NCBI GenBank assembly: GCA_002381485.1 | Contig: DFTJ01000017.1 | Location: 65,576-76,880, forward strand | Length of the DNA stretch: 11,305 nucleotides | Direction: 5' to 3' | Source of the DNA: Candidatus Saccharibacteria bacterium UBA4215 | GTDB taxonomy: Bacteria > Patescibacteriota > Saccharimonadia > Saccharimonadales > Saccharimonadaceae | In this document: one piece after another, positions 2 to 6,524 of the stretch | Layout: each line of letters starts with the position of its first letter | Position numbering within the stretch: the stretch's first letter is position 1 | The notes under the pieces: generated by a model | The model's input: only the letters and a program-made list of their open reading frames with translations | Told to the model about the DNA's origin: nothing | Databases searched by the model: none | Position numbers and translations under genes: made by a program

Positions 2-1042
2 GCTATAGGGGGTGCTTCTCGGCGCGGAGTAATAGTTAAAGGCGGACGCTTCCTTGAAGTCTTGAGCAAAACAAAAGCAATCGCCTTCGATAAAACGAAA
101 ACGCTCACTGTGGGAACTCCTGTAGTGGTTGAGGTTATTACCTTCAACGGTGCATCTAAAGAAGATGTGCTCGCTGATGCGGCAGGTCTAGAGAAGTTTT
201 CTTCCCACCCTCTTGCTTCTGCTATTGAGGCGTATGCGGCTCAAGAAGGTGTCAAGCCTCACGCAATGGATAAGTACAAAAACGTCGCTGGGCGTGGAGG
301 CATCGCCAACTGTCTTGTTTGTGACGGTAAAGATCATGCTATTGGTAACCTGGAACACATAGGCAGTAACGCGAAAGCAAGCAAAGAAGTTATTAAGGAA
401 GTTGAGCGTCTTGAATCGCAAGGGATGACATCAATCCTCGTGAGTGAGGGAAAGGTCGTCATTGGTCTGATTGGTGTCACCGATGAGCTGCGTCCTGAAT
501 CAAGGGGTGTCATCACGGCCCTTAAGCGCCTCAAGGTTACTCCTGTCATGTTGACGGGTGATAATAAGCTTGCTGCGAAGTACGTTGCTGATCAGGTAGG
601 AATCAAGGATGTTTATGGTGCACTTCTTCCCGAAGAAAAGGCTGGATTAATCGAAAAGCTTCAGAAAAAATATGGAAAAGTTGCAATGGTCGGCGACGGC
701 GTCAATGATGCCCCGAGCCTTGCGAGGGCCGATGTCGGTATAGCAATGGGAGGCGGCGGTTCGGATATTGCGATTGAAACAGCTGATGTGACGCTTATGA
801 ACGATGCGATCGGAACAATTCCTTACCTTATGGATGTCGGACAGCAGACCTTTAGGGTAGTACGACAGAATGTGTACGGATCTTTGGCGGTTAAAGGTGT
901 CATATTGGTAGCCGGTGCTTTAGGGCTGGCGAGTCTAAGTGTTGCGGTGGCGGTTGACGCAGCTATGGCAATTCTCGTAGTGGTGAATGGTTTGCGATTG
1001 TTTGGGGCTGGTGCAAAGACGTTTAAACAAATTAAAGCATAG
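2..1042 (+). CDS. P1B-2-type heavy-metal (Zn/Cd/Pb) transporting P-type ATPase, C-terminal part
   Basis: The frame is open from base 2, so the gene starts left of the window; a TTG at 62 is internal, because the codons before it encode the usual ATPase lead-in (GVIVKGGRFLE). About 346 residues are present: P domain, N domain and the last two membrane helices. Visible motifs are the phosphorylation loop D-K-T-K-T (89-103), the P1B N-domain HP pair in SSHPLA and the following GxG, TGDN (554-565) and GDGVNDAP (692-715). The final helices carry a Lys in NVYGSLAVKG (codon 893) and an Asp in AVAVDAAMA (codon 956), matching the TM7 Lys and TM8 Asp typical of ZntA/CadA-type Zn2+/Cd2+/Pb2+ exporters. 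The metal-binding CPC helix lies outside the window, so metal choice is inferred. Odd feature: the near-invariant Gly of DKTGT is Lys (AAA at 98-100), two base changes away from a Gly codon. The protein would act in the cytoplasmic membrane. Confidence 0.9.
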   Translation, partial: AIGGASRRGVIVKGGRFLEVLSKTKAIAFDKTKTLTVGTPVVVEVITFNGASKEDVLADAAGLEKFSSHPLASAIEAYAAQEGVKPHAMDKYKNVAGRGGIANCLVCDGKDHAIGNLEHIGSNAKASKEVIKEVERLESQGMTSILVSEGKVVIGLIGVTDELRPESRGVITALKRLKVTPVMLTGDNKLAAKYVADQVGIKDVYGALLPEEKAGLIEKLQKKYGKVAMVGDGVNDAPSLARADVGIAMGGGGSDIAIETADVTLMNDAIGTIPYLMDVGQQTFRVVRQNVYGSLAVKGVILVAGALGLASLSVAVAVDAAMAILVVVNGLRLFGAGAKTFKQIKA

Positions 1043-1397: not shown

Positions 1398-1712
1398 ATG
1401 GAAACTCAAGTTGGTGATATAGCAAAACTAAACGATAGGTTTCGGGGGATGTGCCTCAATGTGTATTACACGAGTGGGGTGCGAGATGGGATTATAGATC
1501 TCATCGAGCTGTCTCGAAAAATAGAGAGCTTCAGTAAGTTTACCGAAGATAACGACCCATACGGTGAGCACGATTTTGGCTCGCTCATGTTTGAGGGCAA
1601 GAAGGTTTTCTGGAAGATAGATTACTACGACAAGGAGCTGAAGTATTGGTGCGATCCGCTCAGTCCGGACTGTAACCGAACCCTAACAGTGATGTTGGCC
1701 GAAGAGTACTAA
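1398..1712 (+). CDS. DUF3768 domain-containing protein
   Basis: A 104-residue protein recognised as DUF3768 by its N-terminal LNDRFRG and the central run NDPYGEHDFG followed by VFWKIDYYD and the C-terminal RTLTVMLAEEY, which together cover nearly the whole family consensus. The ATG at 1398 is chosen because AGGAGGG (1387-1393) lies just upstream; a GTG at 1344 would add 18 basic residues, has no ribosome binding site and would run through the hairpins of the leader. DUF3768 proteins are small, of unknown biochemical function, and are known mostly from plasmids, phages and other mobile DNA, which fits the neighbouring recombinase. Acid- and aromatic-rich, no membrane segment. It converges with the replication-relaxation-like gene, leaving 34 bases between the two stops, where a short ACGTC/GACGT hairpin is visible but no T-tract. 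Confidence 0.85.
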   Translation: METQVGDIAKLNDRFRGMCLNVYYTSGVRDGIIDLIELSRKIESFSKFTEDNDPYGEHDFGSLMFEGKKVFWKIDYYDKELKYWCDPLSPDCNRTLTVMLAEEY

Positions 1713-1746: not shown

Positions 1747-2523
1747 CTATATTAAGCCGACTGGAGAGCTGGTTTCCCTGGCGTATGTCCAGATAGCACT
1801 AGTACGATAGTCCCCTAGCGCCTTGATCGTTGTTGCCCCGATCGATAGCTCATCAGTATCAATGCCCGCACTTTCAAGCGACTTTTTGGCGAAGTCGAGA
1901 AAGCGTACTTCATTATTACTATCGGCAAAGACAAAGAGTAAAGCAGGGTACACTCCCCCACTCCAGCCCTCTTCTTCGCTATGGGTTATATATTCAGCCA
2001 GACGTTTTCTGATCAGAAACGGTTGGACATCATGCGACAGCGTGATGAAGTACTCACGATCACCACGTAAATAAAGGTCTGGCTTGGTCTCTGGGAGGTC
2101 ATCGAAGGCGGAGAGTTCTTGTTTAGTGAATATCTGGTAAGTATCACCGTAGCTTCGCTTGAGGGCGTTGAATACTGCCAACGTATCAATACTGTGTTGC
2201 ATGAAGGCAGTACTGATCGATTTGTTCTTGTAGTAGCTATGTAGGACGTTAGGATCGAAGCGAGGATCATCTTTAAGAAGAGCGATGCCTTTTGTACTTA
2301 AGTAATAGATAGCTGGTTTACGATCAATTTTGAATACTGGTTCAAATTTACGACCGATGTATTCTTTTTCTAGTAAGATGTCGAGGGTTCTTTGTAATGA
2401 GTTTGATTTTAGGTTTTTGTAGCTTGTAAGTAATGGAATGGTTGCGTAGCGGAATTTGTAGAGCAAGGTTAAGATATGAAGTTGTTTAGCATTGAGATTA
2501 TAATGTGTTTTCTCTTTAGCCAT
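1747..2523 (-). CDS. Replication-relaxation (Replic_Relax) family winged-helix protein
   Basis: A 258-residue protein. The N-terminal ~80 residues look like a winged helix-turn-helix (LNAKQLHILTLLYKFRYATI, then a helix SNSLQRTLDILLEKEYIGR and the wing ending YYLSTKGIALL). The C-terminal part has the layout of Replic_Relax proteins: a helix beginning with a conserved His (MQHSIDTLAVFNAL), an acidic stretch with PDLYLRG, and a strand-helix LIRKRLAEYI, resembling a nuclease-like core. The family occurs on plasmids and integrative elements of Gram-positive bacteria and is thought to act with replication or transfer initiation; a role in mobility of this element is inferred. The ATG at 2523 is preferred over the upstream in-frame ATG at 2607 because AGGAGA (2541-2536) precedes it; the 28 extra residues have no such signal. 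Its promoter overlaps that of the divergent RHH-like gene. Confidence 0.7.
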   Translation of the reverse strand: MAKEKTHYNLNAKQLHILTLLYKFRYATIPLLTSYKNLKSNSLQRTLDILLEKEYIGRKFEPVFKIDRKPAIYYLSTKGIALLKDDPRFDPNVLHSYYKNKSISTAFMQHSIDTLAVFNALKRSYGDTYQIFTKQELSAFDDLPETKPDLYLRGDREYFITLSHDVQPFLIRKRLAEYITHSEEEGWSGGVYPALLFVFADSNNEVRFLDFAKKSLESAGIDTDELSIGATTIKALGDYRTSAIWTYARETSSPVGLI

Positions 2524-2796: not shown

Positions 2797-2993
2797 TGGC
2801 AGTTCGACCAAAGATGCAGATAGACATTTCAACAAAGGCTAAAGCCCGTGCGAAAGCTGTGGCCGCCGATCGAGAGATTACACTGAGCGAGCTGGTGCTT
2901 ACGGCACTGACTAAACTTGGTGACGATAAACTCGCAAGACTCATTAAAGAGGACTTGGACCGCAAAGCAGGTCGCGGACGACCCGCAAAATAA
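2796..2993 (+). CDS. Small ribbon-helix-helix-like DNA-binding protein
   Basis: A 65-residue basic protein. Residues 7-30 read as a short beta strand (KMQIDIS) followed by two helices (TKAKARAKAVAADRE and TLSELVLTALTKL), the order of a ribbon-helix-helix fold as in MetJ/Arc- and plasmid accessory-type proteins. The tail GRGRPAK contains an AT-hook-like RGRP core that could add minor-groove contact with the AT-rich upstream DNA. ATG 2796 is the natural start; an in-frame TTG at 2778 would place the operator dyad inside the coding sequence. No Shine-Dalgarno is visible, so expression is either leaderless from the TATAAT at 2784 or coupled to the mini-ORF at 2750. Placement between two palindromic sites and a recombinase suggests an autoregulator of the element, or a recombination accessory factor. 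RHH assignment is by pattern only. Confidence 0.65.
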   Translation: MAVRPKMQIDISTKAKARAKAVAADREITLSELVLTALTKLGDDKLARLIKEDLDRKAGRGRPAK

Positions 2994-3068: not shown

Positions 3069-3287
3069 ATGGGTATTAGTAAGTTTCATAATTTTGTGGG
3101 TATCATCACTGAATCGTTCAGGGTTGATAATGAGGCTATCGAAGAGCTCCGCATTATTTTGGAACGTGAGAACCAACGCATCGTGACATACGAGGAAGCC
3201 GAAGCAGTTGGCCGTAGCTTAATTACGGTCGTTGAAACACTTGCGAACGGTCGTACTATCGTTGCAGATAGCGAAAAAATGGAATGA
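3069..3287 (+). CDS. Small hypothetical protein co-transcribed with the serine recombinase
   Basis: A 72-residue acidic protein that I cannot name. It is predicted mostly helical, with a middle segment reading as two helices (NEAIEELRIILERENQR, then TYEEAEAVGRSLITVVETL). The pattern of a helix, a T-x-E-E-A turn and a second helix ending in a leucine-rich stretch resembles short proteins that sit before site-specific recombinases in other Patescibacteria elements, but that is recall, not a search. ATG 3069 is chosen because GGAGGG (3060-3065) is immediately upstream; an earlier in-frame ATG at 3039 lies within the hairpin and has no binding site. The stop overlaps the recombinase start (ATGA, 3284-3287), so the two are translationally coupled and may work together, for example as a directionality or control factor. 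Confidence 0.6.
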   Translation: MGISKFHNFVGIITESFRVDNEAIEELRIILERENQRIVTYEEAEAVGRSLITVVETLANGRTIVADSEKME

Positions 3288-4918
3288 ACACGAAGAATAC
3301 AGCAGTCATACTGGCAAGAGTATCGTCCAAATCGCAAGAGGACGAGGGTTATTCGCTTGACTCACAGCTAAAGCTCCTACGGGGTTACTGTGAGAGTAAT
3401 GATCTAAGAGTTGTTCGAGTGTTTAAGATCGCTGAAACAGCTTCAAAGCAGCAAAGTAGAAAGATATTTAACGAACTTCTCACCTATTTAACTGATAATA
3501 ATGTCTATAACCTTACCGTAGAGAAAACTGACCGATTAACACGCAACCTGCGTGACGCCGTATCTATTGATGATTGGCTCGAGCTAGATAAAGACCGCAT
3601 GCTTCATGCCGTTAAAGAAAATTTGAGACTACATAAAGAATCTAAATCCGACGTTAAGTTTATGTGGAATATTCACCTAGCTGTCGCTAAAAAATATACA
3701 GATAACCTTCGCGAAGAGGCTATGAAAGGCTGGGCTGAAAAGCTTGCTCAAGGTTGGCTTCCTTCGCGTCCACCTATCGGCTACATGACGGCTATACAAA
3801 ATGGCAAAAGAGTTCATGTTCCCGATCCGAAGAAAAGCAAAGTTATTAAAAAGGCATTTGAGTTGTACGTTCAAGGAAGCGAATCAACCGCTACTGTTTG
3901 GTCTTTCCTTGAGCAAGCACATATAACGACCTACACTGGCAGGCCACTTACCAAAAGTGCTGTTCACCTCTTGCTGCAAAATCCATACTACATGGGTATT
4001 ATTCAGTTCAACGGTGAGAAATATCCGGGCTCACACCAGCCGATCATATCTAAACAGCTATATAAATCTGTTCAAACAAAAATGCATAGTGGCAGAGCTG
4101 TTAAGCAGCGTCGTCATGACGTTGCACTCAGAAACGTACTCACTTGTGGGTATTGCAGTAAATCAATCACATGGGAACGCCAGAAGGGTCATCTATATGG
4201 CGCTTGTCAGCGTGATTTAGTTGAGTGTAAGCAAAATAAATACTTACGAGAAGAACTGGTACATGAAGTATTGATCGAAAAGCTAGATAAACTCATAAGT
4301 CCGTCACCTACTGTTGTCCAATGGCTAGTTAATAGACTTGAAAACGAGTTCAACGCGTCGAAAGCTACCGTCATCGAATACAAACAGTCTTTAGAGACCC
4401 GCATTACACGACTCGAAAAAATGGATGAGATGTTATATGACGATAAACTTGCTGGTGACATTACAAAAGAACGTTATGAAACAAAACACACCGACATAGC
4501 TAAACAGGTTGAAGAACTCAAAGAAGAGCTTCTAGTTGCTGATGCAACAAGCGAGACCAAGCACCGTGAGGCTATCGGACTAATACAGCTTACACAGCAC
4601 GCAAAAGAACAGTATTTAGACACAGATTTAGCGAATGATGATAAACGTACGATTTTAACCGAACTCTTCGAATCAGTCACCTACATTAGCAACTCCGTAT
4701 CTGTTAAATACACAAAGTTTGTAGAAATGATCGCTGAGAAAAGCGCAATATCTAAGGAAATAATGGAGGACATAGAAATGCTTAACCGAACCAGCGATAA
4801 TAGCAAAAGTAACAGTAGTCAGGAAACAAAAAACAACGCAGAAATTGCGTTGCGTCCTGTTTGGCAGGGGCACGTGGAATCGAACCACGATCTAAGCTTT
4901 TGGAGAGCTTTATACTAG
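3284..4918 (+). CDS. Large serine recombinase (integrase), C-terminus encoded antisense to tRNA-Trp
   Basis: A 544-residue large serine recombinase. The N-terminal resolvase domain (about 5-150) has the ARVSS motif with Arg12 and the probable nucleophile Ser14, GYSLDSQ, and DRLTRN (83-88) with catalytic arginines. A Recombinase domain follows (about 157-270: GWLPSRPPIGY, LLQNPYYMG), then a zinc ribbon with Cys288, Cys291, Cys308 and Cys315, and a long coiled coil (about 350-450). Such enzymes cut and join attP and attB through a Ser-DNA intermediate. No Shine-Dalgarno is needed because the start overlaps the upstream stop (ATGA). The gene crosses the tRNA-Trp terminator and its last 18 codons are the complement of the tRNA itself, stopping at TAG 4916-4918. 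That tail (after about residue 515) is outside any known domain and was probably acquired or is remade when the element integrates. All key residues are present, so it looks active. Confidence 0.92.
   Translation: MNTKNTAVILARVSSKSQEDEGYSLDSQLKLLRGYCESNDLRVVRVFKIAETASKQQSRKIFNELLTYLTDNNVYNLTVEKTDRLTRNLRDAVSIDDWLELDKDRMLHAVKENLRLHKESKSDVKFMWNIHLAVAKKYTDNLREEAMKGWAEKLAQGWLPSRPPIGYMTAIQNGKRVHVPDPKKSKVIKKAFELYVQGSESTATVWSFLEQAHITTYTGRPLTKSAVHLLLQNPYYMGIIQFNGEKYPGSHQPIISKQLYKSVQTKMHSGRAVKQRRHDVALRNVLTCGYCSKSITWERQKGHLYGACQRDLVECKQNKYLREELVHEVLIEKLDKLISPSPTVVQWLVNRLENEFNASKATVIEYKQSLETRITRLEKMDEMLYDDKLAGDITKERYETKHTDIAKQVEELKEELLVADATSETKHREAIGLIQLTQHAKEQYLDTDLANDDKRTILTELFESVTYISNSVSVKYTKFVEMIAEKSAISKEIMEDIEMLNRTSDNSKSNSSQETKNNAEIALRPVWQGHVESNHDLSFWRALY
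4824..4852 (-). terminator. Rho-independent terminator of tRNA-Trp
   Basis: On the minus strand CAACGCA (4852-4846) pairs with TGCGTTG (4840-4834) through a 5-nt loop, 7 bp, followed by TTTTTTGTTT (4833-4824). It begins nine bases after the tRNA CCA. It lies wholly inside the recombinase reading frame on the other strand. Confidence 0.85.
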
Positions 4919-4936
4919 CCGTTGTACTATGCCCCT
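4862..4936 (-). tRNA. tRNA-Trp (anticodon CCA, CCA end encoded)
   Basis: Cloverleaf folded by hand on the minus strand: acceptor AGGGGCA/TGCCCCT (7 bp), D stem GTAC/GTAT with a GG-containing loop, anticodon stem AAGCT/AGCTT around loop CTCCAAA (anticodon CCA at 4904-4902), T stem CGTGG/CCACG with loop TTCGATT, discriminator G (4865) and encoded CCA (4864-4862). The G discriminator and the AGGGG acceptor start are usual for bacterial tRNA-Trp. The gene reads UGG only, consistent with the standard code. Bases 1-27 are shared with the same-strand HNH gene and bases 19-75 with the antisense recombinase gene. It has its own terminator; its promoter must lie within or ahead of the HNH gene. Confidence 0.96.
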
Positions 4937-5254
4937 TTGATGAGTTCGCTCCATGTGGCAGTTCGCACAAACCACTTCGCACTTAGCGAGCTCAGTATCA
5001 ATTTTAACACGATTATTATAATTCACTAGTGTTGCAATGTTATATTGCTTGTCACGGACATGGTCAAACTGCATTACATAGTATGGATATCTCTTGCCGC
5101 AATCCGTGCACGGACGATCCTTCTTGCGGCGAACATATGCTCGCATCTTCTCCTTTGTTTGTTTTGCGCTAGCAATATACACAATCTTATTTTTTAAGTA
5201 ATGTTTCTTACTGCTAACGGCTCTTCGTGGGTCATTTGGATTGCTATACGCCAT
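4910..5254 (-). CDS. HNH endonuclease-like protein ending inside tRNA-Trp
   Basis: A 114-residue basic protein. The C-terminal half carries an HNH/zinc-finger pattern: Cys49-x2-Cys52, FDH with His65 as probable general base, Asn residues around 78-81, then Cys96-x2-Cys99-His100 and His105. The two CxxC pairs would bind a structural zinc. The N-terminal half is Lys/Arg-rich and helical. HNH proteins of this size are frequent as free-standing nucleases in bacterial and phage DNA; the target is unknown. The start ATG (5254-5252) follows a GAGG about three bases upstream. The last eight codons and the TAA stop are the first 27 bases of tRNA-Trp, so HNH and tRNA probably share a transcript, and processing at the tRNA 5' end would cut this mRNA. 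It also overlaps the recombinase CDS by nine bases (4910-4918) on the opposite strand. Confidence 0.75.
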   Translation of the reverse strand: MAYSNPNDPRRAVSSKKHYLKNKIVYIASAKQTKEKMRAYVRRKKDRPCTDCGKRYPYYVMQFDHVRDKQYNIATLVNYNNRVKIDTELAKCEVVCANCHMERTHQRGIVQRLV

Positions 5255-5366: not shown

Positions 5367-6524
5367 GTGAACGTAGTCATTGTCGGGGGAGGGTTCGCTG
5401 GCGTCAAGGCCGCACTAGAGCTGAGCAAACGTCATATTGGCCGCATTACGCTTATTTCGGATGAGGATTATTTTCTTCACCACGCGACGCTCTATGCAAC
5501 TGCAACCGGCAAAAGTATGGCCGAGTCTGTGATTCCCCTTAAGCAGATCTTCGAGAACCATCCCAATGTGACGGTTGTTCACGACAAGGCGACATCGATT
5601 GACCCTACTCGCCGCATTATAAAAGGCGCTAAGAAACAATACCACTACGACAAGGTCATTATGGCCCTTGGGTCAGTCACGACGTACTTTGGCATCAAAG
5701 GCATGGCCGAACACTGCTACGGCATCAAAAGCCTCGAGGACATTAAGAAGTTTCAGAATCATATTCACGAAGCCGTTGTCCAGAACAAGCTGGATAAGGA
5801 CTACGTCATTATCGGCGCAGGGCCAACAGGCGTCGAGCTAGCCGGAGCACTGTGTCAGTACTTGCATTCAACTATCAAACTTCACCGTTTAAACCACTCA
5901 AATACTCGCGTCACACTTGTCGAGGCTGCTCCTCGCATTTTACCGCGCATGTCACCGACTGCTTCTAGGATTGTAGGTCGGCGACTAAAGAAAATGGGCA
6001 TCCGAGTGCTCACTAATCACAAAGTCGAAGCACTTGATGATGACTACATCCTCGTGGAAGGCAAAAAGATCGACACAAAAACCGCAATCTGGACGTCAGG
6101 AGTTGCCAACAACCCCTTCTTTAGTAAGCATCCTGATATCTTTGACCTGGCACCCAATGGGCGGGTCAATGTCGATGAATATTTGCAGGCAGCAAAAAAT
6201 ATATACGTCATCGGTGACAACAATACTGTCAAATACAGCGGTACGGCCTGGCCAGCAATGGCTCAGGCGAGCTTTGTTGCCAAACACTTTTCTCGCATTG
6301 TCACAAAGCGCCAGCCAAAGCCCTTTCGCCCCCGTTCTTACATGAGCGGCGTACCAGTTGGAGAAGGATGGGGCTACGTTGAATGGCTAGGGGTATACGC
6401 AGCTGGAAAATTTGGCGCATGGGTGCGACGTCAGATGGAACTTGCCGGTTATCGGCAGTTTGTTTCGCGCAAAAAAGCCAAGGAGCTTTGGCGCGCACAC
6501 AACATCCCTGAAATTGACGCCTAA
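5367..6524 (+). CDS. ndh: Type II NADH:quinone oxidoreductase (NDH-2)
   Basis: A 385-residue FAD-dependent oxidoreductase that passes electrons from NADH to membrane quinone without pumping ions. The first Rossmann motif GGGFAG (7-12) binds FAD and the second, GAGPTGVELAG (150-160), binds NADH; the FAD-phosphate motif IGDNN is at 282-286, followed by the NDH-2-type AMAQASFVAKH segment with the Ala-Gln pair near the quinone site (about 299-300). The C-terminus has an amphipathic, aromatic and basic stretch (GWGYVEWLGVYAAGKFG onward) typical of the membrane-anchoring helices; there is no transmembrane helix or signal peptide. Length is near the family norm of about 400. Translation starts at GTG 5367, preceded by AAAAGGAG (5355-5362) at a short 4-nt spacing; the residues after it are the canonical FAD strand, so no earlier start is needed. 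It is a single-gene unit; the next operon has its own promoter. Sulfide:quinone reductase is less likely because the expected redox cysteines are absent. Confidence 0.9.
   Translation: MNVVIVGGGFAGVKAALELSKRHIGRITLISDEDYFLHHATLYATATGKSMAESVIPLKQIFENHPNVTVVHDKATSIDPTRRIIKGAKKQYHYDKVIMALGSVTTYFGIKGMAEHCYGIKSLEDIKKFQNHIHEAVVQNKLDKDYVIIGAGPTGVELAGALCQYLHSTIKLHRLNHSNTRVTLVEAAPRILPRMSPTASRIVGRRLKKMGIRVLTNHKVEALDDDYILVEGKKIDTKTAIWTSGVANNPFFSKHPDIFDLAPNGRVNVDEYLQAAKNIYVIGDNNTVKYSGTAWPAMAQASFVAKHFSRIVTKRQPKPFRPRSYMSGVPVGEGWGYVEWLGVYAAGKFGAWVRRQMELAGYRQFVSRKKAKELWRAHNIPEIDA

Follow-up and report, generated by a model that had tools for sequence, protein, structure and literature searches.

We propose that a mobile element of Saccharibacteria carries a large serine integrase that targets the 3′ ends of tRNA genes, that its att site lies inside the 3′ coding end of the integrase gene itself, and that the host tRNA would supply the enzyme's final residues and stop codon; we put the probability of this reading at about 0.85. 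It draws on sequence comparison, which shows a family habit of ending at tRNAs, several junction types in relatives, a 5-bp offset between the P′ and B′ half-sites, an enrichment of terminators and two kinds of integrase tail. The window, meaning the whole 11,305-nt stretch analysed, is G000:C6:65576-76880, from a genome (G000) of 664 kb in 31 contigs. The features on which the argument turns are as follows, in window coordinates.

3284..4918, plus strand: large serine recombinase (integrase), 544 residues, with PF00239 and PF07508; its last 18 codons and stop are antisense to tRNA-Trp
4833..4853, minus strand: terminator-like hairpin and T tract for tRNA-Trp, antisense to recombinase codons
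4862..4936, minus strand: whole tRNA-Trp (CCA anticodon), called by ARAGORN; Rfam agrees, at 4865-4936
4862..4870, plus strand: putative att core TGGCAGGGG, complementary to the CCA end and the acceptor 3′ strand of the tRNA, common to the empty, attL, attR and attP-like junctions of relatives
4881..4885, plus strand: CGAAC of the tRNA T-loop (antisense), proposed from geometry as the zinc-ribbon motif of the B′ half-site
4910..5254, minus strand: gene for an HNH-like small protein, 114 residues; its last 8 codons and stop lie within tRNA bases 1-27
4910..4918: 9-nt triple overlap of tRNA-Trp, recombinase and HNH-like gene
4861..4920 (C6:70436-70495), plus strand: one copy of a 60-bp exact direct repeat; its partner, some 8.4 kb upstream and beyond the window, is at G000:C6:62047-62106
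5367..6524, plus strand: pyridine nucleotide-disulphide oxidoreductase, a chromosomal neighbour that marks the tRNA 5′ side and is there in several relatives

A sequence-only reading of this DNA had started from the claim that every base of tRNA-Trp is also protein-coding, and ARAGORN, Rfam and the open reading frames bear its coordinates out to the base. The recombinase runs antisense over tRNA bases 19-75 for 57 nt, where it reads WQGHVESNHDLSFWRALY and stops; the HNH-like gene covers bases 1-27 on the sense strand (27 nt); all three overlap at 4910-4918; and a terminator-like hairpin, with its T tract, spans 4853-4833 on the strand of the tRNA, antisense to recombinase codons as that reading had it. 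Full coverage of the tRNA is nonetheless a coincidence of two independent overlaps, because the 27-nt overlap of HNH-like gene and tRNA-Trp is also present in G012, where the 20 kb retrieved contain no member of this recombinase family. By this comparison the HNH-like overlap is chromosomal and independent of the element, the gene lying on the chromosomal side. The HNH-like protein has no Pfam match, its name being that of the sequence-only reading. Members of its family also lie 7-21 nt upstream of tRNA-Arg(TCG) in G123, G110 and G138, and abut or overlap tRNA-Cys on the opposite strand in G011, G010, G053 and G086.

The recombinase family ends at tRNAs far beyond chance. The window's protein has a resolvase followed by a Recombinase domain (PF00239, E 1.3e-18; PF07508, E 7.3e-15), TP901-1 integrase is one of its two PDB sequence matches, and the zinc-ribbon cysteines C288, C291, C308 and C315 are invariant across eight aligned members; PF13408, precomputed for many of 120 listed relatives, is absent by Pfam from the window's own protein. 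A profile of eight members retrieved 51 loci from GTDB species genomes, whose hosts, where the titles are telling, are mostly Saccharibacteria and other Patescibacteria, with two loci in an Armatimonadetes MAG and one in an archaeal record. An opposite-strand tRNA with its 3′ end at the recombinase end is present at 33 of the 51, against 0.8 expected from the tRNA density of the same loci in a 600-nt window, in keeping with the earlier suggestion that the recombinase targets a tRNA gene. At the remaining 18 loci ARAGORN calls no tRNA at the expected place, and six of these show tRNA-like pieces by eye. The isotypes at the 33 loci are Gln (12), Asn (10), Trp (7) and Gly, Asp, Leu and Ser (one each). 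These targets have switched often, since a tree of the 51 requires 24 label changes among eight labels (with 'none', 18 rows, counted as one) and its well-supported branches alone force at least 4 changes for Trp, 5 for Gln and 8 for Asn.

The habit extends beyond the family. Distant recombinases of the same genomes (L021-L033; 25-31% identity) end in tRNAs in 13 of 13 cases, several in other frames, which made them unusable as a control. Among 30 loci found by the Recombinase domain alone, an opposite-strand tRNA lies within 150 nt of the stop in 17, overlapping in 15, and is lacking in 13; the longest ORF was taken, possibly on the wrong strand at some loci, so that 17 of 30 is probably low, and the set includes close-family members. 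Viral contigs yielded only four recombinase relatives, at 25-33% identity.

All four kinds of junction occur in relatives. An empty tRNA-Trp locus, which the sequence-only reading implied, is present in G015 and G012; in G015 the flank ...GTGCTTAAGCT sits directly on the CCA end of tRNA-Trp. An attL is found in G256 (L213), where a flank like that of the empty site is joined to the same arm as in G064, and attR is represented by G064 and the window. The left end of the G064 element consists of flank, TGGCAGGGG and TACATGGATGAAGATAGAAC..., its right end of recombinase, TGGCAGGGG and CACGTGGAATCGAACC (tRNA), and the two ends have only about 9 bp in common. The attP-like junction, in G085, joins a recombinase remnant (a fragment) to the arm; with tRNA-Trp some 10 kb beyond it, this is a tandem junction. 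A circular form of the element was not found, the attP-like junction being the tandem one in G085, and the circle invoked below is a presumed one. In G020 the recombinase ends before the core, which is followed by the arm and, about 0.8 kb on, by tRNA-Gln; at L190 the recombinase ends beside non-tRNA DNA in which the arm motif was not seen, with tRNA-Asn about 8 kb on.

From these junctions the core is thought to be the part brought by the element, tRNA bases beyond it being chromosomal. We infer that the crossover lies in or next to TGGCAGGGGYAC, which would make the integrated tail beyond it host tRNA. The earlier claim that the element carries a tRNA 3′ end and terminator as integrase codons would then survive in reduced form: the element would bring the terminator and only the first ~9-10 nt of tRNA (acceptor 3′ strand and CCA), the remaining tail and the stop belonging to the host tRNA.

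Integrase tails follow the neighbouring DNA and not ancestry. The tail reads WQGYMDEDRTF... where the arm comes next and WQGHVESN... where tRNA-Trp does; a recombinase only 27% identical at tRNA-Trp (L031) ends WQGHVESNHDLRFWRPLY, of the WQGHVESN... type, and one 52% identical at tRNA-Gln (L157) ends WLGMRDSNPRSW... (WLGMRDSNPR...). The arm of G064 reads WQGYMDEDRTFYSV..., in full WQGYMDEDRTFYSVSENAISGGKNV up to the stop, and that of G256 WQGYMDEDRTLFSV..., in full WQGYMDEDRTLFSVNENAISGGQNA up to the stop. L175 and L176 (about 36% identity, no tRNA at the place) have the arm-type ends ...DFRTLKW... and ...NVRTIFE..., with AGAAC 29 nt from TGG. The differences among tRNA-Trp, tRNA-Gln and arm tails support the idea that the tail depends on the adjoining att half-site, and relatives beside non-tRNA DNA have a different C-terminus, as that idea predicts, and not the shared one that would speak against it. 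Among 120 homologous proteins, antisense-tRNA ends number 53 by a strict pattern (30 + 23) and 64 by a loose one; by the latter, 17 other proteins end at the core, 33 before the core or shorter and 4 otherwise, and the arm-type tail W.{7}RT occurs in only 2 of the 120.

The sequence-only reading had also asked whether the C-terminus is always antisense tRNA. At 26 of the 33 tRNA-adjacent loci the recombinase ORF stays open into the tRNA and overlaps it, but at the other seven it stops 71-87 nt before the tRNA, which argues that the tail is not essential. Read in this frame, 29 distinct tRNA-Trp sequences would set overlaps of 57 nt (21 sequences), 15 nt (5), 12 nt (2) and 66 nt (1); since 21 of the 29 give 57 nt, the 57-nt overlap is a property of the tRNA, and the host tRNA sets the integrase stop. 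That integration would also set the length of the integrase, as had been supposed, is not supported for the window. Both repeat copies are identical, recombinase stop (4916-4918) included, so excision across the 60-bp repeats is predicted to leave the same 544-residue protein. For G064 a change is predicted, from 18 residues counted from the core on when integrated to 25 when the frame runs into its own arm (totals of 544 versus 551).

The spacing of half-sites agrees with a serine integrase. The T-loop GAAC ends 24 nt from the first core base in the tRNA, and AGAAC ends at 29 in the arms. A scan for TGGCWGGGN{6,26}TAGAAC gave 84 matches in 65 of 296 related genomes, with a total length of 29 in 49 of them, 28 in 4 and an average of 1.6 for each of the other 19 lengths; many of the 49 are related copies, sequences and not events being counted. 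As a control, the same pattern read backwards gave about 61 matches over all lengths; the arm is therefore supported by the peak at 29 alone and not by the 84 matches as a whole. The tRNA T-loop is nearly universal. For that reason it would, together with a core matching the acceptor stem, explain how one family uses many tRNAs, if these are the bases that the protein reads. In large serine integrases the zinc-ribbon motif of attB lies closer to the centre than that of attP, by 5 bp (PMC3783163), and in the relatives it likewise lies 5 bp further out in the attP arm than in attB (+29 versus +24); the left end of the window's element does not have this offset.

Upstream of the core, a terminator (a hairpin of at most -4 kcal/mol with a T-rich tail, no more than 75 nt from the tRNA end) is present at 23 of the 33 tRNA-adjacent loci, compared with 32 of 330 control windows inside recombinase genes. 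This enrichment is the basis for our view that the element seems to replace the terminator that its insertion separates from the tRNA. A second motif, ACAGRGGY, lies mostly 50 or 41 nt before the core (for example in L154, L158 and L162) and is perhaps an accessory site.

In the mechanism that we propose, the last integrase codons upstream of the att site would double as the replacement terminator of the tRNA, and the core (TGGCAGGGG) would rebuild its CCA and acceptor 3′ strand. Downstream, the host tRNA would provide the B′ half-site (T-loop CGAAC), the final residues and the stop codon of the integrase. When the element is unintegrated or in tandem, the same frame would enter the element arm (P′) and come to a different end. 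Given a presumably active enzyme, the swap of the C-terminus follows from the site geometry and the compact layout.

How the window's own element was formed is less straightforward. The 8.4-kb unit, of which the window has the right end, reads as an element integrated at the 3′ end of tRNA-Trp, on account of the 60-bp repeats, the cargo that they enclose and the conserved gene order on the tRNA 5′ side (tRNA-Trp, oxidoreductase, glycosyltransferase and two more genes, whole or partial in several relatives). Like other tRNA-targeting elements it has a whole tRNA at one end and a repeat of the tRNA 3′ fragment, here of 60 bp, at the other; the intact tRNA-Trp at 4862-4936 fits the earlier view that the tRNA is restored beside the element. 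Recombinase residues 526-544 are encoded a second time at C6:62045-62101, and a recombinase 100% identical to the window's occurs in a Candidatus Saccharibacteria MAG (L148). Between the repeats lie genes for a DsbA-like protein, an ArsR-type regulator, a P-type ATPase, a DUF3768 protein, a weak replication-relaxation match and the recombinase, and the cargo within the window is the following.

62..1042, plus strand: P-type ATPase (Pfam), C-terminal part, the start lying outside the window
1398..1712, plus strand: DUF3768 protein (Pfam)
1747..2523, minus strand: replication-relaxation-like protein, 24.5 bits, just under the Pfam cut-off of 25.3
2799..2993, plus strand: small ORF with no Pfam match
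3069..3287, plus strand: small ORF with no Pfam match, directly before the recombinase

No element arm with the motif at +29 was found in the G000 element, whose left end is instead the 60-bp tRNA copy with B′-type spacing. The element in G000 may therefore have arisen, or been changed, in some other way; its left end may derive from an attL by conversion or be what a homologous entry left behind, and the element is possibly non-excisable. An entry by homologous or imprecise recombination, in which a circle bearing an attR-like piece (the integrase end and 60 bp of tRNA) joined the chromosome without the integrase, is a serious contender for the 60-bp repeat, at somewhat under an even chance; the B′ spacing of the left copy speaks for it, as do the ends of the G064 element, which share so much less than 60 bp. 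Yet the left flank, ...GTGCTTATGCT, has the ending expected of a normal attL: it shares CTTATGCT with the attL of G256 and closely resembles the flank end at the empty site of G015. After the 60 bp comes arm-like sequence (TAGTGGAC...GAAC), which conversion of a normal attL would equally give. That left copy (L003 16048-16160) continues from the 60 bp into TATAGTGGACAGGCGAAC, resembling other arms at the wrong distance. Islands of tyrosine integrases, too, usually show a long block of identity up to the tRNA 3′ end, and a tyrosine integrase might have made the repeat with the serine recombinase as a passenger. We regard this as very improbable, given that no such enzyme was matched by Pfam among 15 scanned proteins of the element and its neighbourhood, a part of the element's small ORFs included, and that this serine recombinase adjoins tRNAs at 32 further loci.

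Integration by the serine integrase itself, our preferred reading, leaves room for different views of what the tail is for. The view we hold to be likely, and which is compatible with that reading, is that the tail is a by-product: no stop happens to precede the att region, the overlap has no role, and selection acts on the DNA (terminator, core, half-site) and not on the peptide. Beyond the seven relatives that stop early, this is favoured by the host-dependent overlap, which would range from 12 to 66 nt with tRNA-Trp alone, and by ACAGRGGY, kept in 5 of the 7 non-overlapping loci, where it is non-coding, and in 8 of the 26 overlapping ones, where it is coding (one at 33 nt). The frame does remain open into the tRNA in the other 26 loci, and all 13 distant recombinases end there too, in several frames, although keeping so few codons free of a stop costs little. 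We think it improbable that the C-terminus serves the integrase as a sensor of its own state, with an arm tail or a tRNA tail altering the enzyme's stability or its willingness to excise, so that integration rewrites the enzyme and the host tRNA decides its stop. Were this true, tail sensing would be a widespread, built-in memory of integration across Saccharibacteria and other Patescibacteria.

Tyrosine-integrase tRNA islands place the element on the 3′ side of a tRNA, keep the whole tRNA, leave a tRNA fragment at the far end and can form tandem arrays. All of this recurs here, but with a serine recombinase and, in G064, a core of about 9 bp. Neither large serine integrases nor elements that target tRNAs are new in themselves. 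tRNA genes are common integration sites, and attP often completes the gene, as the available part of one source describes (PMC12884075); in a survey of M. abscessus, 16 of 23 tyrosine sites overlap tRNA or tmRNA genes, and the excerpted text names no tRNA for six serine sites (PMC10654092). The present integrases resemble phiC31, Bxb1, A118/LI and TP901-1, as far as the excerpts describe these, in their Resolvase and Recombinase domains, zinc-ribbon cysteines, short core and 5-bp motif offset between attB and attP (PMC3783163), and differ from them in that attB is the 3′ end of tRNAs of several isotypes, the att site lies in the 3′ coding end of the integrase and the C-terminus varies with the junction. 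A further parallel is the integration-dependent immunity of mycobacteriophages, where, in the portion of the source at hand, attP lies within a coding gene and integration changes the C-terminus of the protein (PMC9635641). There, however, a repressor is shortened and loses a degradation tag, whereas here the integrase would gain a tRNA-antisense tail; with its att site in the integrase gene and not in a repressor, the present system is not a case of that immunity. We found no report in the open-licence literature of serine integrases that use tRNA 3′ ends with the att site in their own coding end, or of their genes ending antisense in tRNAs.

The reading would make sense of frequent recombinase ends in Saccharibacteria and other Patescibacteria (...ESNHDLRFWRPLY, ...DSNPRS..., ...GLEPPH...) as antisense tRNA. 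A single short stretch of DNA would encode the end of the integrase, terminate the tRNA, form the tRNA 3′ end and act as the recombination site. Candidate att sites could be named from sequence alone, with the core given by the tRNA 3′ end and the arm motif at +29; they could serve as integration tools and help to delimit elements in bacteria that are known chiefly through metagenomes. A simple test could then tell whether the integrase protein changes on integration.

Several smaller observations concern the same sites. Five cores stand in a row in G070 (L073, minus strand, 275, 621, 1190, 1447 and 8354), spaced 257-569 nt apart before a recombinase unit and tRNA-Gln, which resembles a small-cassette array anchored at a tRNA. 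Arm pairs 0.6-4 kb apart occur in G208, G227, G079 and G023. The family member in the archaeal record (L175; Candidatus Methanodesulfokora) has the arm-type tail WRRAWDDFRTLKW, and a pattern search of its genome for a second arm returned only the copy beside the recombinase. Shorter units, about 178-192 nt long and ending in a terminator, lie between the flank CTTATGCT and the core, beside tRNA-Trp or an element, in G014, G051, G006 and G064, and look like very small passengers of the same att site; their positions are listed here.

L112, minus strand, 4725-4903: short cassette
L114, plus strand, 5901-6081: short cassette
L117, 3942-4130: short cassette
L058, 815-1007: short cassette

An Rfam scan for structured RNA in the short cassettes, covering the window and three loci, gave only tRNAs at the gathering threshold. 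Similar spacing is seen in G002 and like sequence in G008. The latter genome (1.3 Mb; L056, L109 and L110 on contigs C31, C18 and C38; L057) has two tRNA-Trp loci and two related elements, and may be a mixture of two strains. In G085, besides the tRNA-Trp at C1:63479-63553, a second, divergent tRNA-Trp is called in the array region (L074 12608-12683).
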